A stretch of DNA of 64,000 nucleotides, from contig NC_088302.1 of assembly GCF_032854445.1 (NCBI RefSeq), positions 47,776,521 to 47,840,520 on the forward strand, given 5' to 3'. Below the pieces are notes generated by a model, which ran no database searches, was not told the origin of the DNA, and was given only the letters and a program-made list of their open reading frames with translations. The DNA comes from Liolophura sinensis. Lineage: Eukaryota > Mollusca > Polyplacophora > Chitonida > Chitonidae. The first letter of the stretch is position 1. Each line of letters begins with the position of its first letter. Made by a program: the position numbers and the translations under genes. Positions 37,101-62,500 of the stretch are shown in pieces.

Positions 37101-40100
37101 TGCTGGAGAGAACGGTAGGGGGTTGAATTTCGCAGGAGCGGAGAAAAAACTTGTGGATTCTCACATGCAAAAGTACCAAGTGAATGTGTTAGCTAGTGAT
37201 ATAATTCCACTTAATCGGATGGTACCTGATTCTCGGCCCAGTGGGTAAGTAGGTATCAGTTTTGTTGTCAAGCGAATTTGGTTAGTCCTTTCCATGTAAT
37301 TTCGTCGAGGCTGGCGACGGAGGTAAGAGTTGTGTAAATACTAAAATAAACATTGCTGTTGTATAGGTGCGTCTACGCCCATGTAGTTGAAAGCTTCAGT
37401 TATTTAGGCGTATACTTTTTGGTGTTCGTCTTTGTATATATTAAACAGCGGAAACCTGTTATAAGTGCATTTTGGTGTTGTGGTTTGTGTACAAGGTTAA
37501 ACCGCTGCAGAAAGCTCACATTTGCCTGCAAGTGCATGCATGCAGGGGAATTGAAAATACACACTCGCGTGTTGTGTAAACTATTTGAGTCCGGTACGCC
37601 CTGTTTTAAACTCTTTTCACGGCGGATAGATTGTTCTAGTTGTGCAATACTCGCTGTTCCGTCAGCGACTTCTCCACAAAACGTTCTTGAGGATCGTAGT
37701 TAGCGAAACGCTATGAGAAAATCGGCTGGCCCTTCATGTGATTATATTGTGACATAAAACCATAATAAGAGATATAAGTTTACATTCACAAGCTCAAGAG
37801 ATATGTTCATTGCCCTTGTGCATTTTTGGTGTTGTAAGTAAGAAAGGAACACTGACGAATACCAAACGCCAGAAACCGATACACGTAAAAAGGCGCGAGT
37901 TTTAGATTTGTGTAATGACATTTCTGTGTGCTTTGCTCTGTATATACTCGTTTTTTTTTAATATACAGAAAACGAGGTAGAGTAACTATATTCAGTAATG
38001 AAACTAATAAAACTAAGTAATGTCCTTTTGAATATACACAAAAAGAGATACTGCAACTTTATTCAGTAATAAAACTAAGTGGGGTCCCTTTTAATATACA
38101 CCACACAAGATACTGCAACTATATATTCAGTGATGACGCTGGTACTTTATCCTCCATTTCACGGCCAAACTGACCTGTAAACACAAAGTGCCGCAACTAT
38201 AGATTCCCTGTTACTGACACTTCCAGTAGGGTGCGCTGTAAACTTGACCGCTGCACTCCAACTTTTACCTGACACGAAACATTTTAATAGTTGTTGAATG
38301 TATATTCCAGCCGTAACACAATGAGCCATTGATTAATTGATTATTAAGACAGCCTTGGGTTTTATATACCAGTTAAAAATGAATAAATGCGTGGTCTTTT
38401 TCCTGTCGTCACATCACGAAGAACAAAGCATTTCATGTTATCATAATTTAAAATTATCCACAGGCCTCTACATTGACAGAAATTAATTTATACTCAGACA
38501 TGCCTTATTAAAGTGTATTCGAACACCTGTCATGACTCATTAAACTTCATACGTAGCTTTCCTACAAAAACCTACCATTGGGTGACTGATTTACTTTTTT
38601 TTTATTTGATCGGTGTTTTACGACGTACTCCAAAATATTTCACTTATACGACAGCGGCCAGCATTATGATGGGAGAAAAATCCACGACCATCCGCAGGTT
38701 GCTGCAAGACCTGGGTGACTGAAAGTGAAGGCGAAATATCACCCACATAAACCATGTAAGTCCTGGCTCATACAGTTTACCAGAAGGATTACTTATGAAA
38801 CAACGGATCGCCTTCTGGTAACATATATGCTTCTTCACAAAGTATTTGTAAAATGAAATCATTACAACCCAAAATAATTCATGTACCTAAACTCAGAACT
38901 TAACAACCCAAAAACACTCCATGAGCCTCGACTCAAATCGTTACAGCCCAAAATAATTTGTGTACCAGTGCTCAAAACTTCACAACCAAAAACATTTCAT
39001 GAGCGGCCACTCAAATCGTTACAGCCCAAAATAATTCATGCTCTGCAGCTGAATACCTCACAATGCCAAACACGTCATGTGTCACAGATCAAAAATTCAT
39101 AACGCAGAACACCTCATGTACCTCAACTCAAAACGTCACCACCCAGTGAATATCGCGTACCATAAATATCGTACGTCACATAATGAAATGTGTAAGTTGA
39201 AGGCGCAATGTCTGATCTTTATGATATCAGTATGCCAAATACTGCTGTGCAGTCTCATCTAGTCTGCAGGCATCAAACACAACGCCGCCTTGTTTGATGC
39301 GAGGAGACCAGGTGCCTTCAAAACATTAATCTTGTTTATATAATCAGAATCACTTAATCAGGGTCTTAAGGGATTTGTCGTTTAAATACCATTATCGCAT
39401 TTTACAATATTCATTTTACGTTTTTTTTCCTTGAGTCACTCTCTAGTATACACAATTGTGACACCCGGCTGCTGGTTCTCCGTGGTTCTGGGTTAATGTC
39501 TGATAACAGTAATTTACTTTGTTAAGTAAACCTGATGTTAAGGTTTAATATTATTTTGTCATTACTTGAAAAAAAATGGCCATGTTAACCATACAACATA
39601 TTTGTACAAGTTCGCATTTCATCTGCTGTAAGTTAGATTATGTTTTAATCAAGATGGATTTTCCTAGCAGGAATTGATCCCGATACCTTGGGTTATGTAT
39701 ACGACATTGATAGCGAACTAGAGATAGCGAAGTAGAACTAGAGCTTCTACCCTAGGACAGTGTTAGCTGACCAAAAGTGCTGACGGTCTGGTCATGATTA
39801 TGGTACTAGGTTTAAGTCCGTGACGGTACTCTGGGTTTCTTTATCTATAGAGTTTTTTTTTTTTTATTTTCTTTTTTTTGGGGGTGGGGGTGGGGGTGGG
39901 GTGGGGGTGTGGGGTAGGGCTTGGGATGGGGGTGGGTGGGGTGGGCAAGCTTTTTACAGTGTTCATAACTTGATAACCCAAGTCCATTTAGAAGATAGTT
40001 ATTTCACTTCTGTACGTATGTTTAGAAATTTCACCCAACAAACCAAATTATATCATCGAATGTAAACAGTAGCCTGGTTACCGCTTGAATGGTTGTGTTA

Positions 40101-43100
40101 ATAGCTTTACAACTTTGGTCGTGTTGCTTACTTACCTCAGAGCTTGTACTAAATGTAGTGAAAATGGTTCTTTTTTCTCAATGACGGTGTATGTCCTGTG
40201 TAGGCGTACTGCTTTTTCCTCAGAGTATTTCTTTATTTATTGCCCTTTTTCGTCTTTCTTTTTGCTTGCTCACAAGTTGACTGATCTCCAGTTGATAGAA
40301 ACTCCCAGTTTATACCTGACTGGCCTACCCTTTGTCGAGTGCAAGGGAATCTTTTGCGATCATTAATGTCAGTATATTGGAATCATTAATGCCGGTATAT
40401 GGGAATCATTAATGCCGGTATATGGGAATCATTAATGCTGGTATATGGGAATCATTAATGTAGGTATATGGGAATCATTAGTGTCGGTATACTGGAATCA
40501 TTAATGTAGGTATATGGAAATCATTAGTGTCAGTATATTGTAACCATTTATATCAGTATATGAAAATCATTAATGTCGGTGTATGAGAATCATTAATGTC
40601 GGTATATCGGAATCATTAATGTCGGTGTATGGGAATCATTAATTTTGGTATACCTGAATTATTTATGTCTGTATATGGGAATCATTAATGGTATATTTGA
40701 ATTTGTCGTAAATGTCGTACGTTTTACCAGCCGTTACAGCCGTTTAGTTCGTATGTATGTATGCATATTTTGAGTTTTACATGGTGCTTAAGACTTAACC
40801 CCGTTGTTAGTTGACGACGAGGAATCATTAGGTGTGTGTACATATAATGTGTCTTTTAGTTTGAGAAACGTCCTTATGCGTTAAGCTGACTTTATGCAAC
40901 CTATAGGGAAACTTGGGTCAGGCGTAAAAATGTTTCCATCTGACAAGAGAGCTGGTTGCCTCGCACAGAAGTTCCACCAAGCTGGTACTTTCAGCTTATT
41001 AACCCAGCCGGTGTGGTGGTTAATGTAATTATTAGCCGTCCGATAAACTAAATATACACACTTATAATGAACAATTTATATTCATATTATATTGTATTAC
41101 TCTCCCACGTGTCACATCCATCCGTCGATCTACTAAATGAAGCATGAAGCATGCTCTCATGTCCAAGCGTCCGCCAATCTACTTAATGAAGCGCATGTTA
41201 TCAGGTTCAATCGTCCGTCGATCCACTTAATGAAGCACCTGTTCTCCTGTCCAAACGTCCGTCGGTGCACTTAAAGAAGCACTTGTTCTCAGATCCAAGC
41301 GCCTGTCGATCCACTTAATGCAAGGCTTATTCTCAAATCTAATCGTCCCTTGATCCACTTAATGAAGCACTTGTTCTCAAATCCAAGTGTTCGTCGATCC
41401 ACTTAATGAAACACTTGTTCTCAGGTCCAAGCGTCCTCCGATCCACTTAATGAAGCACTTGTTCTCATCTTAAAGCCTCCGTTGATCCACTTAATGAAGC
41501 ACTTGTTCACAGGTCTAAGCACCTGTCGATCCACTTAATGAATCATTTGTTCTCAAGTCCAAGGGTCCGCCGATCCACTTAATGAAGCACTTGTTCTTAT
41601 GTCCAAGAGTCCGCTAATCCACTTAATGAATCATTTGTTCTCAGACCCAAGCGTCCGTCGATCCACTTAATGAAGCACTTGCTCTTATGTCCAAGAATTC
41701 GCCGATCCACTTAATGAAGCACTTGTTCTCATGGCCAATCGTCCGTTGATGCACTTAATGAAGCCCTTGTTCTCATCTTAAAGCGTCCGTTGATCCACAT
41801 AATGAAGTACTTGCTCATATGTCCAAGAGTCCACCGATCCACTTAATGAACGACTTGTTCTCATGTCCAAGAATCCGCCGATCCACTTAATGAAGCACTT
41901 GCTCTTCTGTCCAATCGGCCCTTAATCCACTTAATGAAGCACTTGTTCTCATGTCCAATTGTCCGTTGATGCACTTAATGAAGCCCTTGTTCTCATCTTA
42001 AAGCGTCCGTTGATCCACATAATGAAGTACTTGTTCATATGTCCAAGAGTCCACCGATCCACTTAATGAAGGACTTGTTCTCATGTCCAAGAATCCGTCG
42101 ATCCACTTAATGAAGCACTTGCTCTTCTGTCCAATCGGCCCTTAATCCACTTAATGAAGCACTTGTTCTCATGTCCAATTGTCCGTTGATGCACTTAATG
42201 CAGCCCTTGTTCTCATCTTAAAGCGTCCGTTGATCCACATAATGCAGAACATGTTTTCATATCTGATTGTCCGTTGATCCGCTTAATGAAGCATTTGTTC
42301 TCATGTCCAAGAGTCCGCCGATCCACTTAATGAACCACTTGCTCTCATGTTCAGGAGTCCGCCTATTTACTTAATGAAGCACTTGTTCTCATGTGTAAAC
42401 GTCCGTTTATCCACTTTATGTAGCACTTGTTCTCATGTTCAAGAGTCCGATTATACACAGTTGTCTACTTACCCAAACCCTCTACTGTATCGCATATTCA
42501 TCAATCCAGACATCTACTCATCCACTTAACTGAACAATTTTGTAACGATTAAACCATCTGTCCACTTTAAACAATCATCCAACCAGACGTTGATCTTATC
42601 AGCCATTCACTGACCTGTAAATATTTTTCAAAATTATGTACAGACGCATATAACGTGATTGATTATTTTCATTTCCAGGTGTTCAAAAATTAAATACCCG
42701 GATAATCTTCCAACTGCCAGCATTGTAGTGCCTTTTTATGATGAGTGGCCTTCCATATTACTACGCACCGTGTATAGCATCATCAATCGAACTCCACGTC
42801 ACCTTCTTAAAGAAATAGTTCTGGTGGACGATGCCAGCACTATGGGTAAGTGAACTGACCTTATTTTCCTTATGTTCCCTTCATTGCATGGCTGGAAGAG
42901 TTGACTTTGACACACCACTTCGTAATTGGATAAATAATAAATGAAATGCTCCACAGAAACGTTTGAATGTCATATACATGTTGATTTTGTGAAAGAAAAA
43001 GGCGAAAACTTACTCGACATTTCACATGGGATATCTTTCATCATTCACTTCAAAAAATGACTTTGTCATGTAACTATCAATATGCATTATCCTCCGTATG

Positions 43101-46100
43101 CATTTACACATAACGGTCCCGAAAAGCCGCATCATGAAAGAGCAGCACCGTTGTCTGGCGTCGTAAAAATATCGATATACTGTTAGCCATACTTCGTATT
43201 TATCTTTGTGATAAACATTAGATTATATGAATAAAAGTACGTAAAATATTTATGGAATTAGCATATATTCATATAATCAACAAGTATATAATGTATACAG
43301 CAATCTGAACTTAAACAAAAACTTCAAAATATCTTTGCTTATTTATTTATTTATTTCTGGTTTGTTTTAGGAGACATTTTAAATCTAAGTCTTAAGTGAA
43401 TTACTGGCAAAAAGTCTAAAAATGTCACATTTTTCCTGAATATTTAAGTCAGATATTTGATATTGGACTGCAGACTTAGCATATATATGTGTACGAATGC
43501 AGGTGCACGTTCACTCTTGTCAAAAGCTGAACCTAAGCAAATAGCTTACTGTAATGTCATAGACAACAAATGTATAATCATATTCATAGATAGTCCGCTT
43601 TATGGCACCAATGGCACGCACTACAACCTGGTAGTGCAATAATCTTCGTTATAAATTGATGAAGAGATACTAAAAAACAAACGAACAGGTTTTTCTACGA
43701 TGTACCAAGGCGATTAGTATGCAGGAGAACCTTTTATACAGACTGATCAAATTATTAAGATCGTGTGCATTTCCAATTTTCTGGTCCGCTTGTACGAAGC
43801 CCTTCTTGCGTTACATACGATTATGTAATATCCGTGGCGACGTGATGCCTGTATAGGCCTACAGTACTGGTTACCATGGTAATGACATACATTGTGGTTC
43901 GTTATCTTCACACGTAGCTGGAACAAAAAGTCATATGTCTGTATGTTACGTGGATATAAAATCACCGGGCTATTTAGGGCAGTTCTGTAGCAGGTAACAC
44001 AGAGAATACTCGTCACAACAAGGCCGTTATTGTTTCCAGGAGTGTAATTCAGGGGATACTCGTCACAAGGCAGTTATTGTTTCCAGTCAGGCACATTCAC
44101 AGGATATGTAGGAACGCCACATAAAATGTGCCTCAGGCGTATAGAACGGTTATTTTTGGCGACTCCCTGCATTCCAGTGATCTTGAAATGTTTAAGTGTG
44201 TCTCTTGAGTTCAGAGCTCGTCGTCTGATTTCGGAATTCATTCGAATTAAGCAAATCAGTGCAGGTCTGGTTGGTTCGAACTGATTTTTTTTCTTCACCC
44301 CATTGTTTTCTTTTTTTTTCAAGCTACCTTTTCTCGTTTCATATAATCCTATGTTTTTAATTTTGACTTTCTACTAGGATCATTGAAAGACCCACTGGAC
44401 AAATACATCAATGAAAGCTTTCCCCATGGTATCGTCAAAATCATACACTTGCCGGAGCGTATGGGTTTAATAAGGGGCCGGATGATTGGCTGGAAACATA
44501 CTACCTCTGACGTCATTATATTCTTCGATTGCCACATGGAGGTCAACATTGACTGGTCAGTTTACTGACGGAAGTACATGTAGACGCGCCGCACTTTGTT
44601 TCTCGGACACCCATTTTGAAATATTTACTTTGATGATGTTATCATCAATACGCAATTGTCTGCTTGAAACATTCGCAATTTACTCTTAAGAAAAGATTCT
44701 TGTCAAAGACTTAAGTAAAAAAGATAACCTCTGAGCTTTTCTGTATTTATTCATTCTTTAATTTACTTTTTATTTGAGATTTTAAGGCGTAAAAATATTT
44801 CACATGTAGCAGTCAGGTTTATAGCTGCACGTAACTGGACAAAAGTCCCCATTGAGCGCGTTACCATGGACAATGCCCGGATGGGTCTGAGAGTTATTCC
44901 CCTGTATTGTTGTGAAGCGCCGCGGCCTTTACAGCGACCTTTTTAATCGATATCAATATAACTATATTTAGCTGGTTGTAGCTGCAATTTTCGAGGTTGT
45001 TTGTGTAAAACGAAGCGAGAGCCACTGATGAGTTTAATTATGCTCAAATACAACTCTACCACTTTACCCCTAGTTTTCAATTTACGAATAAATGATTATA
45101 ACCGCCATACTGAACTTTAGGGTTGTTTCTAATTTTCTTCACATTATTTTCGCCCATCTTAAATGTCCCATTTTATCAATTACAGGATTCAGCCGTTACT
45201 GGCGCAAATAAAAAAGAACCGTCACACGGTTGCCATGGGAACGCTCGACTACGTGCACCCTGAAACATTCCATTATAGGTTTTACGAAGATTACATGACT
45301 CGATATGGCTTTGACTGGAAGCTCACATTCTTTGAGACGTTCTGGAGGAACGCACAATTAGCGGGCCGTCAAGCCTCAGAGCCAAGAATGTAAGTCAGGC
45401 TACACGTGCTCAGTTGATTTGCACCTGGTTCAGGCTGTCGGCTTGACCCGTTTTAACTTTTCTGTAATACAAGAGTTTACACTTAAGCAATAAACATGAT
45501 GTACTTGTGACTACGGGATCACGCGACGATCTTAGACTTATATGTATATATTTGTGTATCGCTCGTTCAAAAATGATATAGATGTGTATAGTTTTGTGTA
45601 CCCCACGTACACCAATTGAGATAAAATTATACAGATGTGTAGGTACTAACATACTTACATGAGGTGGATACGTAATTTTAGATCTCGGATGTGCACAAAA
45701 TGAGGTGGGTGTGAGGCAGTTTTCCACATCTATACAAAATAAAGTACATTTGTGTGCCGCACATAACCAAAATGACATTTGTGTAGTTTTGTGATGGCCT
45801 ACAACTCCTTTCGATAAATATTCTACTTTTATTTATTTATTTTTTCTTTTCGTAACACATGCACTTTAAATTTAAGTCAGATTCATTATTAATTCTCAAA
45901 GAAATATTGTATTGATAAATGGTCTCTAATTTATTCGCTTTGTTGGCTGTACACAGAGGGGCCGTGATGGTGGGTGCAGCTTTTGCAATAGACAGTAAGT
46001 ACTTTGAAGAGATAGGAGCGTATGACGAGGGGATGGACGTGTGGGGAGGTGAGAACCTGGAGATGGCCTGGAGGGTAAGCAACTAGTTCAGTCTCTCCCA

Positions 46101-49100
46101 ATCACCGTATTAAGTCGCGTTCATGTACACAGTGTCGTATTGACTCCACCGTTGAATTAAAGTCTGTTTCGTATAGCCGGGTTTATGAGGTGAAATCTGT
46201 TGAATGCTACAGTTGCATAAAATAGAGGATATACTCTGTTTTAAGTGGACTAGTCGATTCCAATCGCACCGATTGAACGCGGTTTTATTTTTTGTTGGTT
46301 AATGGCAGTCATAACACTCCATAACGGATATTTTCGAACTGTCAATCCAAAAGACACATTAGACCAATCATTATCAGCATTGTTGCATATAGGCCTGAAT
46401 GGCCTGTACAGTGGTTACAAATGTCAGTCTTTCTGTGATGTCATGACATAGCTTTCAGCGGGAATGGAATGAAAAGAAGGGGTGGTGGGACATCGGATGT
46501 TTTGGGTCCATCTATACCACTTTGAAAAAAGATGATACCGGTTATTAACAAAAATTGCTTTGTTTTCCATTCCCAGGTTTGGATGTGTGGCGGAAGATTA
46601 ATACATCTTCCATGCTCCCACATAGGTCATATTGCCCGACCCCAGCCATATAGCTTCCCTGGGGGTCGACTCAACGTCGAGGTTCATAATTACAAGAGAG
46701 CGGTGGATGTGTGGATGGGAGATTATAAACGATTCGTATATGATCACTTCCCTGACATGGCCGTAAGTGTTTAGAATAGGGCAACATCGTAATAAAAATC
46801 TGTATACGCTTGTAATAGCTTTTCCAAAAACAAAAAAAAAACAAAAAAACAGGTTTCTTATAATTAATTAAATTTTTATTTGTCTGTAATAAATACTGCA
46901 GTATACTCAAGCCGTATTATCTCATTTCGACTTTGTTATCATTTAATGTTTCGTGTTAATAACTGTTGACAGGGATGTAATTATTATCATATCCCAAATC
47001 TACTGCACAACATTTATTTATGCTATTATAAAAATTGCAGTCATATTTTGTATATTTCTTGGCCTATGTTAACAAAGTCTTCAATGAATTAAATTTTCGT
47101 TTGAATATTTGTAATTTTGGTATTGTTTCAAAATGATTCATTTCTGTCACGACATAATTACGTACAATTGAGAACTTACGTACAATTGAGAACAAACGTA
47201 CAATTGAGAATTTACTAGATATTATTGTCCATTTGTATAATATCAGACTAGATTATTTAATTTCTTTTCTTTTTCACGCAGAAAATAGATGTTGGTGATC
47301 TTACAAAAAGAATAAAGTTGAAAGAAAAGTTACAGTGTAAAAACTTTACGTGGTTTATTGACAACGTTTGGCCAGAACTGAACGTCTTTGACAGAAATGC
47401 TAAGGCCTGGGGATCGGTGAGTAGAGCAGTAGTGTTAGGTGAATCACTCATTCAGCCCATTAGTCGGTTTGTGAAGTCCAAGATTCAATCGTTCATTCTG
47501 GTAATCACAGTAATCAGTAAGTAAGAGCTGGAATGAATGGTTAGTCCGATCATCCTAGCGTATTAACTGAAGGATTGGCATTAATCATAACATGTTGGCT
47601 TGTGCTCAGCACGGTACAGGCAGCTCGCCTGACAGTTACCTCTGGTCTCGGGATGAAGTATGACGGGTGTTCAATAAATAGAAGTCCAGTGACGTCAGAC
47701 GTCAAAACATTTGACGCCTTTTCGAGGACTTGCCAAGTGGTGTTCGTGTAATGTGTGTACGATTTGTATGTGTATTTTTTCTTAATATAAATGTTTTTTT
47801 ATGGGAATGTAATTAATGGTCCTTTTTGAATTGTGAAATGTTAAACTGTGAACAGCGAGCCAAGCTCACACACTTTGTAGTTTAACCACATGTATATACA
47901 AGTTATGTTATTGGTGTTGATTTCAATCACTGGTAAATCCTTGTAAATATCATATTCAACAAAAAGTCCTTAAAAGCATATATTGTTTGGTATTTAACCT
48001 TATTCGAAAGGTAGTAAAGGCCCAACTGAGGATTTTTAACTCAGGGTTTATCAGTGGACGAAATCAGATAGTGAATGTAAAATGAGCTAGAAACATTGAA
48101 TGTATGACTAAGTTTTATTGTGTAAACGTGATCGCCACAAATCACGACACAGGGTTTCCAAACGTTCAATGCCGGCAGGTCGATGTTGTCAGGTACCTCC
48201 AACTGGTTTACTCAATTTCTGGCTTTTTAACTGAAAGTAAGGTCCGTTGTATCAGTTGTGAGACAATTGAAGAAAATTCCCTGCCAGTTTTAACCTACAA
48301 ATCGTTTGTTACTTTTCAGGTGCAAAATCCTGCTACAGAATATTGTCTGGATACCAATGATTTTTTGTTTAATTACCAAGACAAATTGATGGCAAAGCCG
48401 TGTACACATAAACTGGCAAATCAGGTGAGTAATCGCAGATATTTTAGGTTTAATCTGAAACCTCTCCCGGCTTCATACAGAGAAGCATTTTTGAATCCAT
48501 TTCAGACTTCATATGCTTACACTTGTGAATTGGCGATATAACCGTATATAAAAATACTGAGTTGGATATGATATTGGCATATAAATCAAAATTAAACTTC
48601 TTAACGAAAATATACTCTCTTTATTTAAATCTGCCAACTTTTATTTCAACTACATTGTGCCTACTTTCATTAGGGATTTAATTGGGACAAAAGCAATCGC
48701 CTTCGCTCGTCTTTACACTGTGTTGTGGTCAATGATGGGGAAGGGATAGTTAAGCTTGACGACTGCATCCAAGGAGTACAGGATTTTTGGACACACGAAA
48801 AGGTAAGAGGACAAAATTATTGAATCTTGATTTTAATCAAATTAATATGTGACTGAGAGACTGATTAATTTTCGTTCTGCCGGCCAAATCCCAACCAGAG
48901 AGCGTGGTGAAACAGTGTCTGTTTTGTCAGTAACATGGCTTTTCACCACGAACTACGAGATAAAGCGAGATATTTAGGCATCAAAGGATGTCAAATGTTA
49001 ACATTTGTAATAAAGTCAGGGATGTTCAAAGTGTTCAAGAAGTAACCCGCCTACCAATACTTCCAATTCTTCAGAATGTAGGTCAGGTGCCCGTCGAGGT

Positions 49101-49817
49101 TGGATGGTTTTGGCTTTCCTCTGCAATTCTGGGGATCAGCGTTCATCGATAGGTGTATTGAGGGGTATTGGTTATTGGGATCCGTTAGGACAGACGCTGG
49201 ATCAGTATCCATCACTGGGTATTGGTCTGAGATCAGCGGATTAGCGTTCATCGATAGGTGTATTGAGGGGTATTGGTTGTTGGGATCCGTTAGGACAGAC
49301 GCTGGATCAGTATCCATCACTGGGTATTGGTCTGAGATCAGCGGATCAGCGTTCATCGATAGGTGTATTGAGGGGTATTGGTTATTGGGATCCGCTAGGA
49401 CAGACGCTGGATCAGTATCCATCACTGGGTATTGGTCTGAGATCAGCGGATCAGCGTTCATCGATAGGTGTATTGAGGGGTATTGGTTATTGGGATCTGC
49501 TAGGACAGACGCTGGATCAGTATCCATCACTGGGTATTGGTCCGAGAATACTGCTGCGTTCTACTTGCTTTTCCCAACAGATAAACAGGTAATACAAGTA
49601 ACGTAAATCAGATCAATACATAAACATATAAACCCATTATTTATTGGTTAGCCATTTCGAATAAGTTTTGTTTTATTGTACTTTTCAGAACGGAGCTATA
49701 CGTCACATCAAAACGGGGAAATGTCTGGAACTTAGTCCTAGCAACGAACCTATAATTAACACTTGCATTCCAAATTATGCTGCTCAAAAATGGACATTCC
49801 GTTTCGGCAATGTGTGA
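27140..49817 (+). CDS. Polypeptide N-acetylgalactosaminyltransferase gene 1 (GALNT family), complete, two candidate first exons
   Basis: Encodes a Golgi type II membrane enzyme that transfers GalNAc from UDP-GalNAc to Ser/Thr, the first step of mucin-type O-glycosylation. Coding exons: 1A 27140-27645 or 1B 36739-37244; 2 42679-42845; 3 44378-44555; 4 45186-45389; 5 45957-46074; 6 46577-46762; 7 47282-47416; 8 48320-48424; 9 48674-48802; 10 49689-49817. All introns are GT-AG and all phases match, giving 1857 bp (618 residues) with either first exon, normal for the family. Visible parts: signal anchor, stem, GT-A catalytic domain with the metal-binding DCH (residues 275-277) and WGGEN (381-385), and a C-terminal ricin-type lectin domain (exons 8-10, CLD and QKW motifs). 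The exon 6 motif [14 protein letters not shown] is family-typical. I cannot assign a vertebrate subtype. The catalytic and lectin reading is seen directly; location and reaction are family knowledge. Confidence 0.93.
27646..29975 (+). other. Intron after GALNT exon 1A
   Basis: No GALNT-like exon is visible between exon 1A and exon 1B. A CAT run lies near 27849-27866. Confidence 0.55.
29980..30110 (-). mobile_element. ACTC-tailed SINE, internally deleted
   Basis: (GAGT)n then GGGGTTTAACGTCGTACTTA is joined almost at once to the tRNA-like head (GGTGTGACTCGACCCAGGAT, TGACCCTGGATCTACCGCTC). The ~230-bp body seen at 16028-16358 is absent. Confidence 0.7.
30115..30395 (-). mobile_element. tRNA-headed SINE head region
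   Basis: Minus strand from 30395: TAGTCTAATGGTTAAAGGCG (A box) and ACGGGTTCATACCCGTCC (B box), then CACGTGGGAATGTTTGCCAA and ACTTGCCAAAGCTCGGTGG. A third tRNA head type in the window. Confidence 0.6.
30411..30545 (+). mobile_element. Old SINE fragment (MetaSINE-like)
   Basis: GACACGTGGGGAAGTTCGTC, CTCCGGTTTCCTCTATCCGC and a decayed core up to CTACCTTAAACCCATGAC. It forms a nest with the two SINE pieces to its left. Confidence 0.5.
31240..31865. repeat. 40-bp minisatellite, about 15 copies
   Basis: Unit TAACGCTGCCTGCCACCGCT followed by ACATGAATGCTCAAACTGTG. Some copies diverge, with an interruption near 31620-31660. Lies between exons 1A and 1B. Confidence 0.9.
31870..33905. other. No recognised exon (between GALNT exons 1A and 1B)
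   Basis: A 120-residue minus frame at 32157-32519 is unrecognised. Confidence 0.5.
33909..34062. mobile_element. Two SINE fragments in inverted orientation
   Basis: A plus-oriented core (CCCACCATAATGCTGGCGTA) to about 33990 is followed at once by a minus-oriented core (GTGTTTTACGCCGAATAAAC, GCATTATGGTGGGAGG), making an imperfect palindrome of about 150 bp next to a long (TA)n run. Confidence 0.75.
34073..34160. repeat. (TA)n microsatellite
   Basis: About 44 uninterrupted TA units directly beside the inverted SINE pair. Confidence 0.95.
34577..34800 (+). repeat. Dispersed repeat family R3, copy 3
   Basis: From GACGTCTAATAATTTGCAAT through TTTACATAAACAGTTAGAAT, GAGGCCGTATTTCACCGGCT and CACAATGTCGTCGCTACGCT to GCTGTACGTCTTTA. 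Confidence 0.7.
35310..36560. other. CpG-richer region upstream of GALNT exon 1B
   Basis: Around 35460-35660 CpG is denser, with GGTGACGTCGCC, GATGACGTCGCA and an NRF1-like TGCGCATGTGCA. No gene recognised; it could be distal regulatory sequence. Confidence 0.35.
36567..36635 (+). promoter_or_regulatory. Possible promoter of GALNT exon 1B
   Basis: TTTATAAG near 36569 followed by a direct 26-bp duplication AGCCCTTTCTGTCAGTGTAC / TTGTAT at 36582-36607 and 36608-36633. About 105-170 bp before the exon 1B ATG. TATA function is inferred from position only. Confidence 0.25.
36739..37244 (+). CDS. GALNT gene 1, first coding exon 1B
   Basis: ATG at 36739 opens [20 protein letters not shown], a basic tail plus hydrophobic signal anchor. 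The stem follows and the exon ends in the family motif before the catalytic domain ([20 protein letters not shown]). The donor is CAGTGG|GTAAGT, phase 2, matching exon 2, which starts with one base that completes Gly and then [11 protein letters not shown]. As the nearer first exon it is the likelier default start. A TATA-like TTTATAAG and a duplicated 26-bp element lie 100-170 bp upstream. Confidence 0.88.
38592..38715 (-). mobile_element. SINE fragment (MetaSINE-like), in GALNT gene 1 intron 1
   Basis: GGTGTTTTACGACGTACTCC to CCACGACCATCCGCAGGTTG; part of the core and the head are missing. Confidence 0.75.
38864..39140. repeat. ~39-bp minisatellite in GALNT gene 1 intron 1
   Basis: About seven units starting AACCCAAAATAATTCATG and ending ACTCAAAACTTCAC-like. 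Alternate units share ACTCAAATCGTTACAGCCC, suggesting a 78-bp dimer. Confidence 0.75.
39836..39952. repeat. T-run followed by G-rich simple sequence
   Basis: T/TTTTTATTTTC run to 39875, then about 75 bases of GGGGGTGGGGGTGGGG type on the plus strand. Many G-tracts of 3-5 with 1-2 base loops would allow G-quadruplexes. On the sense strand of gene 1 intron 1. Confidence 0.9.
40360..40700. repeat. 23-bp minisatellite in GALNT gene 1 intron 1
   Basis: GGAATCATTAATGTCGGTAT plus ATG, about 14-15 copies with point changes. Confidence 0.9.
41125..42450. repeat. 44-bp minisatellite with 220-bp higher-order repeat
   Basis: About 30 units of GATCCACTTAATGAAGCACT, TGTTCTCATGTCCAAGCGTC and CGTC-type joins. 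A five-unit block recurs at 220-bp spacing (ATGCACTTAATGAAGCCC near 41750, 41970 and 42190). It ends about 230 bp before exon 2 of GALNT gene 1. Confidence 0.92.
42679..42845 (+). CDS. GALNT gene 1 exon 2
   Basis: Acceptor TTTCCAG. Encodes the start of the GT-A domain: [20 protein letters not shown] and then [10 protein letters not shown], which is the nucleotide-sugar binding segment of the family. The donor is ATGG|GTAAGT in phase 1. It lies directly after a 1.3-kb 44-bp minisatellite. Confidence 0.93.
42846..44377 (+). other. GALNT gene 1 intron 2
   Basis: No repeat family or exon seen; a short ATTTATTTATTT run near 43340. Confidence 0.6.
44378..44555 (+). CDS. GALNT gene 1 exon 3 (DxH motif)
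   Basis: 178 bp, the same length as exon 3 of gene 2. Encodes [20 protein letters not shown] and ends with the metal-binding FFDCHMEVN (DxH type). Acceptor TTTCTACTAG, donor GACTG|GTCAGT in phase 2. Confidence 0.93.
45186..45389 (+). CDS. GALNT gene 1 exon 4
   Basis: 204 bp, identical in length to exon 4 of gene 2. Encodes [20 protein letters not shown], then [16 protein letters not shown], the catalytic-domain segment just before the WGGEN loop. Acceptor ATTACAG, donor AGAAT|GTAAGT in phase 2. Confidence 0.92.
45957..46074 (+). CDS. GALNT gene 1 exon 5 (WGGEN loop)
   Basis: 118 bp. Encodes [20 protein letters not shown] followed by [11 protein letters not shown], the most conserved motif of the family (acceptor and UDP-GalNAc site). 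Acceptor CTGTACACAG, donor TGGAGG|GTAAGC in phase 0. Confidence 0.94.
46577..46762 (+). CDS. GALNT gene 1 exon 6
   Basis: 186 bp in phase 0. Encodes [20 protein letters not shown] and then [19 protein letters not shown]. This is the end of the GT-A domain, with the paired cysteines of the CGG..PCS motif and the VWMD-type segment near the active-site lid. Gene 2's counterpart has 189 bp and carries the junction-derived array behind it; this exon has none. Confidence 0.93.
47159..47213. repeat. ~20-bp triplicate in GALNT gene 1 intron 6
   Basis: ACGTACAATTGAGAAC repeated three times with short variable joins. Confidence 0.85.
47282..47416 (+). CDS. GALNT gene 1 exon 7
   Basis: 135 bp, equal to gene 2's exon 7. 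Encodes [20 protein letters not shown] then [10 protein letters not shown], the family linker (GD...R..L+..L.CK.F.W) between catalytic and lectin domains. Ends AWGS at donor ATCG|GTGAGT, phase 0. A short 20-bp tandem repeat (47159-47213) sits in the intron just upstream. Confidence 0.92.
48320..48424 (+). CDS. GALNT gene 1 exon 8 (lectin repeat alpha)
   Basis: 105 bp, equal to gene 2's exon 8. Encodes [19 protein letters not shown] and [13 protein letters not shown]: the CLD motif opens the ricin B-type lectin domain. Acceptor ACTTTTCAG, donor AATCAG|GTGAGT. Confidence 0.9.
48674..48802 (+). CDS. GALNT gene 1 exon 9 (lectin)
   Basis: 129 bp, phase 0 at both ends. Encodes [20 protein letters not shown] and [14 protein letters not shown]; the paired cysteines are those of the lectin repeat. 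Acceptor TTTCATTAG, donor GAAAAG|GTAAGA. The following intron holds the 105-bp repeat array. Confidence 0.9.
49095..49545. repeat. 105-bp tandem repeat, four copies, GALNT gene 1 intron 9
   Basis: Unit: GCGTTCATCGATAGGTGTAT, TGAGGGGTATTGGTTATTGG, GATCCGTTAGGACAGACGCT, GGATCAGTATCCATCACTGG. Almost identical copies. Because 105 is a multiple of three, long open frames (159 and 168 residues) arise on both strands; they are not genes. Confidence 0.92.
49689..49817 (+). CDS. GALNT gene 1 exon 10, stop
   Basis: 129 bp including TGA at 49815-49817. Encodes [20 protein letters not shown] and ends [12 protein letters not shown], the QxW motif that closes the lectin domain and the protein. Acceptor ACTTTTCAG. 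No clear AATAAA follows closely; the nearest is in the A-rich tail of a SINE fragment near 50095, which may serve as poly(A) signal (inference). Confidence 0.92.
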   Translation, partial: NGAIRHIKTGKCLELSPSNEPIINTCIPNYAAQKWTFRFGNV

Positions 49818-53546: not shown

Positions 53547-56500
53547 CTGAAAATGAACAAGAAAGTCGAAAACATACTAATGGGTTGTCTACATGATTAT
53601 TTATTTATTTATTTATTCATTTGATTGGTGTTTCACGCCGTACTCAAGAATATTTCACTTACGACAGCGACCAGAATTATGGTGGGAGGAAACCGGCCGA
53701 ACTCGGGGAAAACCACGACGATCCGCAGGTTGCTGAAAGACCCTTCCACGTACGGCCTTGAGAGGCAGCCAGCATGAGCTGAACTGAACTCACAGTTAGT
53801 AAGAGGCTGGTCATGGTGCCGCATTGGCACGCTAACCACGGAGGCCACGGAAGCCGTCAGGAGGTGTTTAATTTGCCACTATTAAAGCATTTACATAAAT
53901 ATCCACAATAAAACCCTGACTGAGGAAAACTGGCAAGAGGCCGGATTTCCACGGTTAGGTGGCCTTACATTAATTCATTAGGGAGAATTTGCCATCCACC
54001 AACCTGGCCTGCGTCTGTACGCCCCTTGTCAGTTACTATTATTTGTCAAGGGCAGGTGGTTTAGTCCGATTTTTGGACCCAACTTCAGAGGGTTTATAAC
54101 CACTTATCTTCCAAAGACATTACATTGTTCTCCAACAATACCATGCTGGTCATTGTGTCGTCAATGACCTAAGCTGAACCTATTTGCTGGAATAAAGTTT
54201 CCTCCATGAGGTTTCATATTTTGCAGTGTGTAACCATATTTATTTACCTTTTCGTGTTTCCATTCATGGTTAGGTTCTAGCAGACAATCTTCTAATGCAA
54301 CACGCGTTTCTTTGACAACAACACACTGTAAAGAGGTTCTGAACTGTCCGGATTCCTTCAAAGAAAAGCTCTAGAAAGGAAGGAAAATATTAGAATCAAC
54401 ACGGTTAACTCGTTTTTTTTTTATCCACGACACTCAACACTGTGGCAAGTCGACAACTGATAGCCCACAACCTAGTTTCTGAAAATTCACGCATCTAGGG
54501 GAATGCAACTCTAAGAATGATAGACAGTAAGCTGTAGCATTTTACCGGGCTTTCCAGCACTTCTCTTTGTCTGCTTTTCAGAGGAAATTTAATTTCTAAT
54601 GCATTCTTTCAAAGTGGTAGTTCATGGTTTCATTTCATAAATCGTCAGCCATCACGATTAGGCAGCTGGAGAAGAACAGTTTTAAACCGAGACCCAAATT
54701 CGCATCAATCACTAGATATGACCTTGGGGTCAAGCGGTAATTTCAAATTAGGTTGGTCACGTTAGTGTTGGCAGGGATGATATTACGATGGCCATGAATG
54801 ACACATAATAAACCCAGACAACCGCCATGACACCCTGTGTTCAGGTTGCCTGAACTTGCTACGCGGTATGATTTATTTATTTATTTGTTTGACTGATCTT
54901 TTTCGCCGTACTCAAAAATATTTCACTTATACGACGGCGGCTAGCATTATGATGACAGGAAACCGAGCAGAGCCCGAGGGAAATCCACGACCATCCGCGG
55001 GTTGCTGACTTCCAACGTAAGGCCGGAGAGGAAGCCAGCATGAACAATTCTTTTAACATAAATTGAAAGGGGTTTCTTTTTAAATCGTTTCACATGGATA
55101 TTAAACTTTTGTTAAGTTGAAATCACTTCGTAGTGAGTACATGCAGTATCGATCCGAGAGAGAATAAAGCGGAGACGTTTTTACCTGTGAAGAGACTTTG
55201 TAAGTACAAGATTTGGCGAACAACTGCTGCTCCGCCTGGAAAAGGTAGTCATCGTTGTCCAAACAAAGAGGTATGTGCCGGTTTGAAACCTATAAGGAGG
55301 AAATAGTTAACCCAACTGTTATTTAATTATTTAATTAATTGGGGTTTTACGCGGTACTCAAGAATATTTCATTTCTACGACGGCGGCAAGTTAACTTAAA
55401 TATACCTGTTTATGTTTACTGTAACAGAAATAGAAATATCATAAGATTGGTATACTGGAAAAATTGCAGTGATAGAAGTGTCCCAGAAATGATGTGGCTT
55501 AGAGATGTGTGAAAGAGATGCTATAGCTTTGGAGACTTCCGCAATAATGATGAGGTGCCAGGATTCCACAGAAGATGTTTTCAGTGAATAAGCCACGGTT
55601 CCTCCGCATGTTTATCCTAAGTCCAGGAAGTGAAGGGCTTTGTAGTGAGAAGGATGTAGCCTTGTGTCTTATGAGATACCATACATCACAAGACTGCAAC
55701 TTTAAGGGTGGTCACAATATGGCTGAATGAGCGTTAAGCCATAATCATTCATTTATTCATTTCAAGGGTTGCACTTCAAGTATTTTTTAATATATTAACC
55801 ACACACCACATATTTAACGCAAATTAATGAGATTTTAAAATGATAAAGTTAGAAGAGATGCTTCTACCATTGCAAAATCTTACCCCTCCCCAGGCCTGAG
55901 CATTTTCCGGGAAGACAGTGAGCTCTGGCCATATCGTGTCCAAGAACCATGTGAAGTTTTTACAGTGTAGCTTCTCCTTTATTTCCAGTCGATCACTTAT
56001 ATCCCCGACGTCAACGGTCTGTGAAGTGGAAAAGGTACAGCGTTTTGTGAAGAAGAAGAAAACAATTAGTCTACGCATTATCCTTTCATTTTACAATTTA
56101 CATTCAATAACGAACTGTTTTCTGTTCACAAATGTTTTAGCAGAAATGTACTGCAAAAGACTGGAAAAACAAGAATTAATATTTTTTTGTCAATAGTTTG
56201 ATCCCAACATGAAAAGCATATCAAAGATTTACCTATCTAGATAACAAATTTGTATCAAAGTTTCCGATTTAGTATCGCGTGTACAGTTGTGACAACATAA
56301 GTGTAAAGAGTAATTTCATACGTAAAAATGATCATACATCAGACGTATAAAGCTGACTTTCATATTTAGGAAATGAACATAGAAGAAGTCAATGTGCGCT
56401 ACCTTCATACAGTCACTTAGTACTTACTGTGAGAATCAGCACAGATGAAGGTTTTGTTTTCTTTACAACGTAAACTACGGAACTTACTTTCATGGTCGGG

Positions 56501-59500
56501 AAATGGTTATAAATCAATTTTATGAGTACAGGCTCTATGAAAACTATTGTGCTTACTTTCATAACTGGGAAATGACCATAAATCAATTTTTGGGGTAAGG
56601 CCTCAATGTAAACTAGAGAGCTTACTTTCCCAGTTGGGAAATGGTCATAAATCAGTTTTATGGGCACAGCCATAATGCAGACTAAAGAGCTTACTTCCAT
56701 GGTCGGGAAATGGCCATAAATCAATTTTTATGGGTACAAACTCAATGGAAACTATTGTGCTTACTTCCATAATTGGGAAGTGACAATAAATCAATTTTTG
56801 GGGTAAGGCTTTAATGTTAACTAGAGAGCTTACTTTCCCAGTTGGGAAATGGTCATAAATCAGTTTTATGGGCACAGCCATAATGCAGACTAAAGAGCTT
56901 ACTTCCATGGTCGGGAAATGGCCATAAATCAATTTTTATGGGTACAAACTCAATGGAAACTATTGTGCTTACTTCCATAATTGGGAAGTGACAATAAATC
57001 AATTTTTGGGGTAAGGCTTTAATGTTAACTAGAGAGCTTACTTTCCCAGTTGGGAAATGGTCATAAATCAGTTTTATGGGCACAGCCATAATGCAGACTA
57101 CAGAGCTTACTTCCATGGTCGGGAAATGGCCATAAATCAATTTTTATGGGTACAAACTCAATGGAAACTATTGTGCTTACTTCCATAATTGGGAAATGAC
57201 AATAAATCAATTTTTGGGGTAAGGCCTCAATGTAAACGCACAGAGCTTACTTTCATAATTGGGAAATGACAATAAATCAATTTTTGGGGTAAGGCCTCAA
57301 TGTAAACGCACAGAGCTTACTTTCATAATTGGGAAATGAACATAAATCAATTTTTGGGGTAAGGCCTCAATGTAAACGCACAGAGCTTACTTTCATAATT
57401 GGGAAATGAACATAAATCAATTTTTGGGGTAAGGCCTCAATGTAAACGCACAGAGCTTACTTTCATAATTGTGAAATGACCATAAATCAATTTTTGTGGT
57501 AAGGCCTCAATGTAAACGCACAGAACTTACTTTCATAATTGGGAAATGACCATAAATCAATTTTTGGGGTAAGGCCTCAATGTAAACGCACAGAGCTTAC
57601 TTTCATAATTGGGAAATGACAATAAATCAGTTTTTGTGGTAAGGCCTCAATGTAAACGCACAGAGCTTACTTTCATAATTGGGAAATGACCATAAATCAA
57701 TTTTATGAGCACAGGTACAATTCAGACCATAGAGCTTACTTTCATACTTGGAAAATGGTCATAAATCAAGTTTTTGTGCAGAGGATCCATCCAGACGTCT
57801 ATGGCTCTCTTGTAGTTCAGAACTTCCGTTTCCATGCGTCCTTTAGGAAATGAATAGGGCTGTGTACGAGCTATGTGGCCTATATGTGAACAGGGAACAT
57901 GGACCATCCTTCCGCCACACATCCACACCTGCCACAAACAAACCAAACAGCCACTCGACAATATATTTTTTTCTTACTCCTTTGAAACACAAAGTAAAAG
58001 CGCACGATTTACGTATTTATGAATTTGATTGTCTTGTAACAGTATACTAAAAAAGTTGTGCGACGGTGATCAGCTTTATGGGTGGAGGATACCAAAGTAC
58101 CACGCATAAAACGCCCACCTTTAGCAAATTATTGAGAAGCATTTCCCTCCTGATACTTCGGTCAAATTGCTGGAGGACAAGTGGTCAAGGGGGCGAGTAA
58201 GTTGCTGTTTTTAAGCAATTCCATGAAAGAATTAAACTAACTGAGGTAAACTAACAGAAGCCGAATTTCACCGCTTATGTGTGACCGTTTGCCAGTAATT
58301 ACATTATCGTCACTATTCTAGTTTCACATCCCATGCGGAGATCCTTCGTGTTTTACGGTTGGCTTGCTGTTCAAATGATCCCTGTCGACGGTTTTGTTGT
58401 TTTTTTTTTGTTTTTTTTTTTTTGGTCAAGAATCTACAAATTCCCTCTCCAGGACCAAGACTGCACCGTTATGTCTCAGATATCTCTTTTAAAAAAATCC
58501 CGGGACAGGTTTACCTGGTTCATAAAGAATACACTTGAACAATGATATTAGGAAAACAATGTTATTCTATTATTCTATTTAATTTCTAAAAGTATGTGGG
58601 AGGGTCTGTCATCAACCTGCTGAGGGTCGTGGGTTTCCCCGCGCTGTGCCCGATTTCCTCTCACCATAATGCTGGCCGCCGTGATATCAGTGAAATATTC
58701 TTAAGTAGGGCGTAAAACACCGATCAAATAAATAATAAAATAAATAATTTCTAAAAGGTCAAATAGGAAAGTGCAAATGGAAATGGAAGCCAATCCTAAC
58801 TGCACACAATGACAGCAGTTTATACACGGGCACACAACAATAACATCAAGGCCTTAGCTGCGCCACATAAAACACTAAGAAACCACCATTCTTTAACTCT
58901 AGAAATATTTGGAAAGCATTTGAAGATTTTTGGGAATCTGACTGGAAAACAAATCGTAGTAAACATAAACGAGGTAACAATGACCCGAAACCTTGTCACA
59001 TGGTCTCACATTAAAAAGATCACTGCATAAAGGTTGTTTCCATATTATATTGGCATAAAGCTAGGTACATGTACGAGAGCTTATTTAAAAAGAGGCTTAC
59101 CCGCCAACCGAGTTCGATATTTTCACCTCCCCAAGTTTCCATACCCTCATCGTAGGAGCCGATTTCTTCAAAGTAATCGCTCTCTACAGCGAAACCAGTT
59201 CCCACCGTAATCACCCCTCTGAAAGGAAACACAGACATTTAGCCGGGGAAATCTAACAGGAAGACGTTACATAAGAACATACATGTTCATGTGTAGACAA
59301 AAGTTAGAACTTAGAGCCTCGGCTGATCAAAAGACTGATTACAAAAGTTGGGACTTAGAGCCTGGGCTGATCAAAAGACTGATTACAAAAGTTGGGACTT
59401 AAAGCATGGGCTGATCAAAAGACTGATTACAAAAGTTGGGACTTAGAGCCTGGTCTAATCAGAAGACAGATTCAAAAAGTTGGGGCTTACTCTCTGGGTT

Positions 59501-62500
59501 AATCAGAAGACAGATTCCAAACGTTGGGGCTTACTCTCTGGGCTAATCAGAAGACAGATTCCAAAAGTTGGGGCTAACTCTCTGGGCTAATCAGAAGACA
59601 GATTCCAAAAGTTGGGGCTAACTCTCTGGGCTAATCAGAAGACAGATTCCAAACGTTGGGGCTTACTCTCTGGGCTAATCAGAAGACAGATTCAAAAAGT
59701 TGGGGCTTACTCTCTGGGTTAATCAGAAGACAGATTCCAAACGTTGGGGCTTACTCTCTGGGCTAATCAGAAGACAGATTCCAAAAGTTGGGGCTAACTC
59801 TCTGGGCTAATCAGAAGACAGATTCCAAAAGTTGGGGCTAACTCTCTGGGCTAATCAGAAGACAGATTCCGAACGTTGGGGCTTACTTTCTGGGCTAATC
59901 AGAAGACAGATTCCAAACGTTGGGGCTTACTTTCTGGGCTAATCAGAAGGCTGATTACAAAGTTGAGACTTACGCCCTAGCCTGATCAGGAGACAGGTTC
60001 CACGTCAAATCCCTCCGAAAGAAGGTCTCAAAGAATACCAAGCGCCAGTCAAAGCCGTATCTGGTCATGTAGTCTGAGTGGAACTCGTACTCAAATGTCT
60101 TCGCGCTGATGTAGTCCAGTGTTCCCAGAGCCACGATCTGCCGGTCCTGCTTAATTTCATATAACAGAGGTTCTAACCTGTGGAAAGAAAAAGGCTGGTG
60201 TCATTTATTCGCTATATGACCATGATGGAGGCCAGATTTTCTTCTTAGCATCAAAGTTGCATCAACTTCACTAAAAAATTGTGTTCAGTTGGCAATCCGA
60301 ACACATGTACGTGATGAACCAATACCTCTTTTGTATAAAAAAAAATCCAAGAAAAGTGACATCACTTAAATCGTTTATCATGAAGATACACATAAATTAG
60401 ACGTGCGCCGGCACGATTCCAGTGATCTGATATCTGTTAAGGTTAAAACTAGGCTGCAAATATTTATTTATTTGACTAGCGTTCCACGCTTTAGAAATAT
60501 TCACTTTCATAACGGCTGTCAGACTGGATAGAGGAACCGGACTTAACAGGAAGAAAACCGCACCTTGCTTAATACAAAACAAACTTCCTAACTTAAGGCC
60601 ACAACTGAATCTGAGCTGGAATCGACCACGCGACTTCACTGGTCAATTGATCGTCTTCTGAGACAATTGCTAATCTGTCACATTGTTCTCTGAGAGTTAT
60701 TCCCCTTGAGGCGTGTTAACCTTATCCGTGACGTTCAGGCGAAAAGAAGAAAAATACACAGCTTTTTAATGTAGAAATCTTGCTATTTGTTTTCTCCCTA
60801 CTATAATACGATTCCTTCAGACGGATAGTTCTTCTCGATAAAGGACCGGCAACATTACAAAAAATGTGGAAAAAATGTGAAATTGACAACAGTTGTGAAT
60901 GACAGTGGATGCCAAATTCGTAAGGCCAGTTCTTTTTTTTAGTTCTGTTTTTCTTCTCTTTTTCTGTTACATGACAAGCGTGTGGAAAGATCCAAACACT
61001 CATAGAAGCAAGACTTTGTCTTAGCCCACTCCAGTCTCACTGAAATATCTTTCTCTATATTAGTTACTGCGGAGTGGGGGTAATCACTGTACCACAAATG
61101 TGACTTTCTGAAAACGCCTTGAGCACGGCTTTAAACTAATCAAATACAATAAAAAATATGTAATAAATGTAATTCCCAACCTTATAATTACGATACATAT
61201 TACACACACCATGACAAGGTTATAGTAAATGAGGGCATGAGGATTCACGCATGATTTCAGTATAGCTGCAACGTGTTACATATAGGTATACATTAACAAT
61301 TCACGGTAAAACCTATTTAACAAATTTTGGCTTTCGATCAAGTTTTCTACTTCTGATTGGGAAATTTACAAAAGTATTGTATTCTTATTGTTCATCTCTA
61401 GGGCCGAATTATTATTTTATCAAACCGTTAAGAGTTCTTAAAGAGCCATTTTAACCAAAATTCTTCCTTTGATGTATGAAAGAAGAAAGATATCCTGTCT
61501 AGCAATGCGTTATTTCATATACCATACATGAATTTTCTCAGATAATCCTACTAATACCGAGTGCTTACAGAAACAAAATTTCGGCCATTTCCGTACAAAT
61601 TCCTCGAGTCATTTTCCTGGAGCGACGTTATTTTTCCTGCAGTGACGTAATCTGCAACGTCTTCGATCACACTATAGCTCATTCACGGATGACGTAGTCT
61701 TCTGAGCAGGAGACGTCATCTGGAATTTTGTGAAGTCATAGTAGCGTCAAATGTCGTGATATGACGTCACACCAGGAATTTGTCCGGAAATGACCGAACA
61801 TTTTGTTTTTTGCATTGCGGGGAATTGCCCAAAAAGCTTAGCGTGTCTTTATGTGAATAAACCGTTTGCACATACTAGCAATTTTACCCTGAAATGTGTG
61901 TGCACCGGAATGGCTCTTTAACACCGGAAGAGCAAACTTTCCCTAGGTTAAAGTCTGTATAAGTTCCCATATTAAAAATAAATATATTCACCTTAACTAG
62001 ACTTGTGAGTATGAGCATTGATAATTGATAATGATTATGACAAACGATTAGCATTAACTGTTAAGTAAAGTCTCTTCCGTACAAATTCATGTGATGAAAT
62101 GCATCGCAATGGAGTGCATGGAATGCATGGTTGCAATACAACCCCACCTGTGGTTATATATCTTTGTGTTTAAATATGCAAAAACCGCATTCCAAAATCT
62201 CTTTCTTCTTTCAAAAGACTCTAAGATCGACCTGTCATCCCGGGGTCAGTTCTTTAAGTATTTTGAGAATAACGGGTTCTTCACACATTCTGAGAATAAC
62301 GGTTCTTCACACATTCTGAGAATAACGGGTTCTTCACACATTCTGAGAATAACGAGTTCTTACACATTCTGAGAGGAACGGGTTTTAAATACACTCTGAG
62401 AAAGATTTTTCTCAAAGGATAATACTGGGATACACAGAAGGTTTTCCAACGATGGCCAATTCTTCTCACCGAAGAACCCGCTATTCACAGAGCATATAAA

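Follow-up and report, generated by a model that had tools for sequence, protein, structure and literature searches.

Tandem arrays resembling the 5' splice junctions of their own introns in a GALNT-type gene of the chiton Liolophura sinensis

The 64 000-nucleotide stretch of Liolophura sinensis DNA analysed here (C8:47776521-47840520, hereafter the window) comes from a 609-Mb assembly of 632 contigs, for which the assembly report gives 609.5 Mb in 632 scaffolds, 14x HiFi coverage and a mean read length of 8,347 bp (PMC11068029); the species name has been corrected from L. japonica to L. sinensis (PMC12441733). The window contains gene A, on the minus strand, and its paralogue B, on the plus strand and convergent to gene A, with corresponding introns. 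Introns 4 and 6 of gene A contain tandem arrays that resemble the 5' splice junction of the intron in which they lie, and intron 4 is the main subject of this report. Exons 3-10 of gene A are within the window, exon 2 straddles the window end and exon 1 lies beyond it at the window-equivalent positions 79080-78556. The spliced protein of exons 2-10 agrees at 447/447 residues with the L. sinensis database protein P0070, which has 622 residues and is named 'inactive polypeptide N-acetylgalactosaminyltransferase-like protein 5'. On its matches to Pfam (PF00535, 1.6e-14; PF02709, 8.6e-06) and its similarity to the solved GALNT1 (1.7e-63), gene A is classed as encoding a GALNT-type enzyme; the query protein for these searches carried an intron-derived A in place of P as its first residue.

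Intron 4 of gene A (59973-59219, minus strand, 755 bp) lies between exons 4 and 5. An initial annotation, made from the sequence alone, had described it as built from repeats of its own 5' splice junction, and this description is upheld. Tandem Repeats Finder (TRF) reports 44 bp x 15.5 copies with a score of 958. Each unit is equivalent to the final 28 bases of exon 4 followed by the first 15-16 bases of intron 4, and 15 such units lie downstream of the true donor. With the true junction included, the array extends from 59973 to 59299 and occupies 675 of the 755 bp (about 670 had been estimated), leaving 80 bases outside. The decoy GT dinucleotides of the eleven core units begin at 59930, 59886, 59842, 59798, 59754, 59710, 59666, 59622, 59578, 59534 and 59490, in steps of exactly 44; the ladder of 59486-59926 given earlier refers to the other end of the same pentamers. 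The true donor had been taken as the next rung of this ladder, whereas the actual distance from 59973 to the first decoy is 43 bases. Seven of the eleven core donors read GTAAG and four (59842, 59798, 59622 and 59578) read GTTAG, exactly as counted before, and four further units without a donor follow at the far end. The core consensus is identical to the true junction at 34/44 positions and at 21/28 in the exon part, so that the proposal of the exon 4 end as template is borne out as a clear relation rather than an identity. The best 44-mer elsewhere in the window, on either strand, reaches only 24/44, and the best ungapped self-match of the junction within its own intron scores 24, compared with at most 11 in 20 dinucleotide shuffles; the match between junction and array is therefore not a matter of chance. 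Coordinates are collected in Table 1.

Table 1. Positions of the junction arrays, their host exons and the corresponding introns of paralogue B (window coordinates unless stated otherwise).
Feature	Position	Strand	Remarks
Exon 4, gene A	59974..60177	-	Last 28 bases most likely the exon half of the repeat template; spliced protein compared with P0070
True 5' splice site of intron 4, GGC/GTAAGT	59969..59973	-	Junction as in P0070
Eleven core 44-bp units with decoy donors	59475..59958	-	
Block pair, exact over 196 bases at a 220-bp shift	59455..59870	-	59870-59675 and 59650-59455
Four distal diverged units without GT	59299..59474	-	CTAAG or TTAAG at 59446, 59402, 59358 and 59314
Array-free 3' end of intron 4 with acceptor	59219..59298	-	TTTCCTTTCAG
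Exon 5, gene A	59101..59218	-	
Exon 6, gene A	57740..57928	-	Tail most likely the template of the intron 6 array
Second junction array, intron 6 of gene A	56453..57739	-	Far end approximate (TRF: 56466)
Outlying diverged copy of the intron 6 unit	56343..56381	-	blastn, 79-85% identity over 39-base matches
Intron 4 of paralogue B, position and phase as in gene A	45390..45956	+	Without junction copies
Intron 6 of paralogue B, position and phase as in gene A	46763..47281	+	Without junction copies
Third donor-junction array, PGGT1B intron 6, 76 bp x 18	L015:7983-9348 (C8:47868503-47869868)		Outside the window

The intron 4 array is homogenised inside and has diverged edge units. Ten core units fit the core consensus at 41-43 of 44 positions, compared with 39 for the unit adjoining the true donor and 32-37 for the four distal units. 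Exact identity over 196 bases at a shift of 220 points to a block of five units having been duplicated recently. The unit adjoining the true donor has a distal-type beginning (GTAATCAG) and a core-type continuation, a mosaic of the sort expected from exchange between units.

Intron 6 of gene A (57739-56019) contains a second array, built of ~70-bp junction units. Its true donor, AAA/GTAAGC at 57739, is followed by 18 decoys (57670 to 56487), every one of which has GTAAG and ten of which are identical to the true donor over nine bases, with ~30 copied exon-tail bases upstream. An exact repeat of 282 bases at a shift of 208 likewise points to a recent block duplication. A third array lies outside the window in intron 6 of the gene for the beta subunit of geranylgeranyltransferase I (PGGT1B); the gene was recognised from Pfam (PF00432), from comparison with solved structures and from the L. 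sinensis protein P0185. All 17 decoys of this array read GTAAGG, and 15 of them keep the nine bases of the true donor. The three arrays, 0.7, 1.3 and 1.4 kb in length, fall within ~37 kb.

When each of the 26 introns of the three genes (9 + 9 + 8 for gene A, B and PGGT1B) was matched with its own junctions, with the donor of gene A intron 7 placed one base early, donor-junction arrays were found in three, with scores of 24, 36 and 40 compared with at most 13 for shuffled junctions; copies of the acceptor junction were found in 0/26 by the same self-match. These introns are a non-random set, gene A having come from the original finding and PGGT1B having been flagged by a scan for donors in step with the repeat period. 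Because two of the three genes were thus chosen for their arrays, 3/26 is no genome-wide frequency. The in-step scan is itself blind to acceptor-side arrays and missed the intron 4 array, and a donor bias of junction arrays rests on few cases. A scan of 284 contiguous kb around the window for arrays of at least three copies and a period of at least 20 gave 43 arrays, at least three of which are donor-junction arrays; this count is a lower bound, comparison with a gene model having covered some of the arrays only. In arrays at large, in-step GT(A/G)AG shows no clear excess (6/58; the mean over 256 patterns is 4.2 and the motif has rank 46), and most arrays in the region are therefore probably of another kind. 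Large minisatellites at window positions 41144-42449 and 49133-49547 and at window-equivalent positions 64300-64887 and 68270-70042, which lie in further introns of gene A and B, are without copies of the junctions of those introns. Similar unit sizes and copy numbers are seen in the 105-bp array of intron 9 and the 44-bp array of intron 1 of B, which, unlike the intron 4 array, hold no copies of the donor or acceptor junction of the intron around them.

Most likely the exon served as template and the array is the copy. Three arrays each resemble their own junction, and the exon tails concerned are coding sequence at intron positions common to A and B. The tail of exon 6 encodes a conserved YxxxPxM motif, found in 9/9 other proteins that reach this point in an alignment of nine of the 69 listed relatives plus B, and B does not differ in length at the end of exon 4, although most relatives are one residue shorter there. 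An ordinary minisatellite that came first, with the exon end captured from it or the likeness being secondary, would suit a region as rich in minisatellites as this one (43 arrays in 284 kb); we nevertheless hold it to be very improbable, since it would have to account for the conserved coding tail of exon 6, for the length and position kept at exon 4 in B and for three separate matches of an array with its own junction.

The same comparison bears on the age of the introns. Introns 4 and 6 of B have the same position and phase as those of gene A and are without copies, so that the introns appear to be older than the arrays, and an array-free ancestral intron is supported by the B sequences. 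This counts against the arrays marking the gain of new introns by duplication, barring loss of the arrays in B or convergence. In favour of intron gain, the minisatellite-like repeats of amphioxus that cross splice junctions, termed 'mirages', have been put forward as origins of new introns (PMC3087553), and a duplication crossing an exon-intron boundary is described for potato (PMC4974935); for gene A we consider intron gain very unlikely. Still less credible is an assembly artefact in which a short duplication was falsely expanded: tandem repeats are hard to assemble and coverage is 14x, but the differences among the units are structured and the mean HiFi read far exceeds the length of each of the three arrays. 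The number of units may nevertheless differ between haplotypes.

The database proteins P0070 and P0185 both join at the first donor, from which we infer that the mRNA is also joined there. When the exon frame is read past the true donor, a stop is reached after 15 bases in intron 6 and already after one base in intron 4 (GCG TAA), where the initial annotation was right to note a stop in the exon frame. As the stop precedes the first decoy in both introns, splicing from a decoy would give a truncated protein, and the earlier claim to this effect is right for intron 6 as well. In PGGT1B the stop is at 77 bases, one base beyond the start of the first decoy (76); a transcript spliced at that decoy would gain 76 bases and be frameshifted, while any later decoy would include the stop. 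The truncating stops of introns 4 and 6 would suit a functional decoy array, which might, for example, provide a bank of U1 sites to reinforce a weak true donor or serve as a poison switch giving truncated transcripts. Also in keeping with such a function are the retention of GTAAG in 18/18 decoys of intron 6 and 17/17 of PGGT1B, and the true donors of introns 4 and 6 themselves, neither of which has G at position -1. Paired with what we take to be the 5' end of U1, these two donors give only -5.9 and -4.5 kcal/mol and, with that of intron 2 (-4.6), are the three weakest of the nine in gene A. The array donor of PGGT1B is, however, ordinary (-8.5), and introns 4 and 6 of B have donors about as weak (-4.9 and -5.2) yet no array. 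Tested across the 26 introns, the weakness of the three array donors is not significant (P = 0.17), and compensation for a weak donor was dropped as an explanation. GTAAG has been lost in 8/15 units of the intron 4 array, where 37 of the 44 windows along the unit vary as little as the donor pentamer or less. The pentamer ranks 7/70 in intron 6 (11 with the states tallied over unit types, and 7 to 16 with wider windows) and 18/76 in PGGT1B; taken over the three arrays, these ranks give no consistent support for maintained decoys. Predicted RNA accessibility is likewise without a consistent pattern, the true donor being more accessible than 18/18 decoys in intron 6, less so than 11/11 in intron 4 and in the middle in PGGT1B, and RNA structure hiding the decoys was rejected. 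A function for the decoys is accordingly rated as improbable, although less so than the other alternatives.

We consider it very probable that intron 4 is instead a mirage whose decoys are by-products, with splicing at the first donor, and that it arose by a tandem duplication across the donor that was spread by unequal exchange. A short tandem duplication across the donor would leave the first donor in use, and the second copy would thereby fall into the intron at no cost, the protein being unchanged. Unequal exchange or slippage would then spread and homogenise the copies, with units at the far end diverging, and the intron would grow to its present 755 bases. The pre-mRNA would continue to be spliced at the first donor, and the decoys would not be parts of a switch. 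The missing acceptor-side arrays would fit scanning for the first acceptor, where a copy would alter the protein, on the few cases at hand.

Several points weigh against this account. B, the paralogue that shows the array-free state, could have lost its arrays, and the annotation pipelines behind the protein models may favour an open frame. In intron 6 all 18 decoys have an intact GTAAG despite seven unit types, and the extra states per column are fewer in the exon part (0.40) and the donor (0.17) than in the spacer (0.85). The lower variation of exon and donor is only suggestive, the ranks being 7-16 of 70 over six test variants; the intact decoys among seven diverged types are the best remaining hint of constraint.

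Junction-spanning minisatellites are described in two amphioxus papers (PMC3087553, PMC3902484) for Adh3, the globins BflGb6 and BflGb9, PGBD5 and troponin C. As in the chiton, these are minisatellite-like repeats across an exon-intron boundary of the host gene, with splice signals in many units; as in chiton intron 4, they are homogenised inside and diverged at the cluster edge, and regular splicing is reported to be undisturbed. Judged by its structure in the sequence, the intron 4 feature is a mirage. Mirages are further marked by length polymorphism and somatic instability; the chiton arrays were read from a single haploid assembly. The amphioxus cases reportedly involve both 5' and 3' boundaries, the globin unit measuring 150-160 bp and occurring three or six times depending on haplotype and the Adh3 units measuring 10-72 bp, whereas the chiton, a mollusc, has three donor-side cases with 11 to 18 decoys, two of them in one gene. 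The potato duplication resembles the chiton arrays in that duplicated exon sequence ends up in an intron; there a new intron was reportedly made (PMC4974935), while in the chiton the position is common to the paralogue and length alone has changed. No junction-spanning minisatellite in molluscs or in animals beyond amphioxus was found in a non-exhaustive search of the open-licence literature. The chiton arrays add a case from another phylum to a kind known from amphioxus.

Some further features of the region were recorded. A second GALNT-type first exon with the donor GTAAGT lies within intron 1 of B (window ~36740-37250, plus strand); it is probably an alternative first exon of B, since the database calls the B protein isoform X2. 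A junction-like match in the same intron (window 37211, score 20) belongs to this exon and was rejected as isolated and not an array. The predicted protein of a GALNT model of Bulinus truncatus (P0004) has at its end a repeated peptide (YLEYFTTVFGV...) that resembles a minisatellite translated within the gene model. Intron 2 of PGGT1B (L015 ~2850) has the GC donor AAG/GCAAGA and is a GC-AG intron. A 24-bp x 26 array at L013:3350-3979, with 23 in-step donor motifs, starts where a possible 42-base exon, itself preceded by an acceptor-like site, comes to its end; no Pfam match was found there in three plus-strand frames and no solved-structure match in one frame. The array with in-step donors at L027:7537 gave no Pfam match in the plus-strand frames, and further arrays with in-step donors, at window 24437 and L014:3681, were judged by eye only.

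The presence of three arrays in ~37 kb suggests a wider process that lengthens introns without changing the protein. Whether it extends to a recurrent, donor-biased duplication of the 5' junction with ~28-35 exon-tail bases in many genes, tolerated because the first of up to 19 near-identical donors is strictly taken, is a tentative idea that we hold to be possible but rather doubtful. Junction arrays are in any case a real trap for gene predictors. In intron 6 the database protein joins at the first donor even though ten of the 18 decoys are identical to it over nine bases, which makes donor selection testable in a minigene, possible selectors of the first donor being exon definition, distal exonic enhancers and the order of transcription. 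If the wider process is real, such introns would be natural saturation tests of donor choice.

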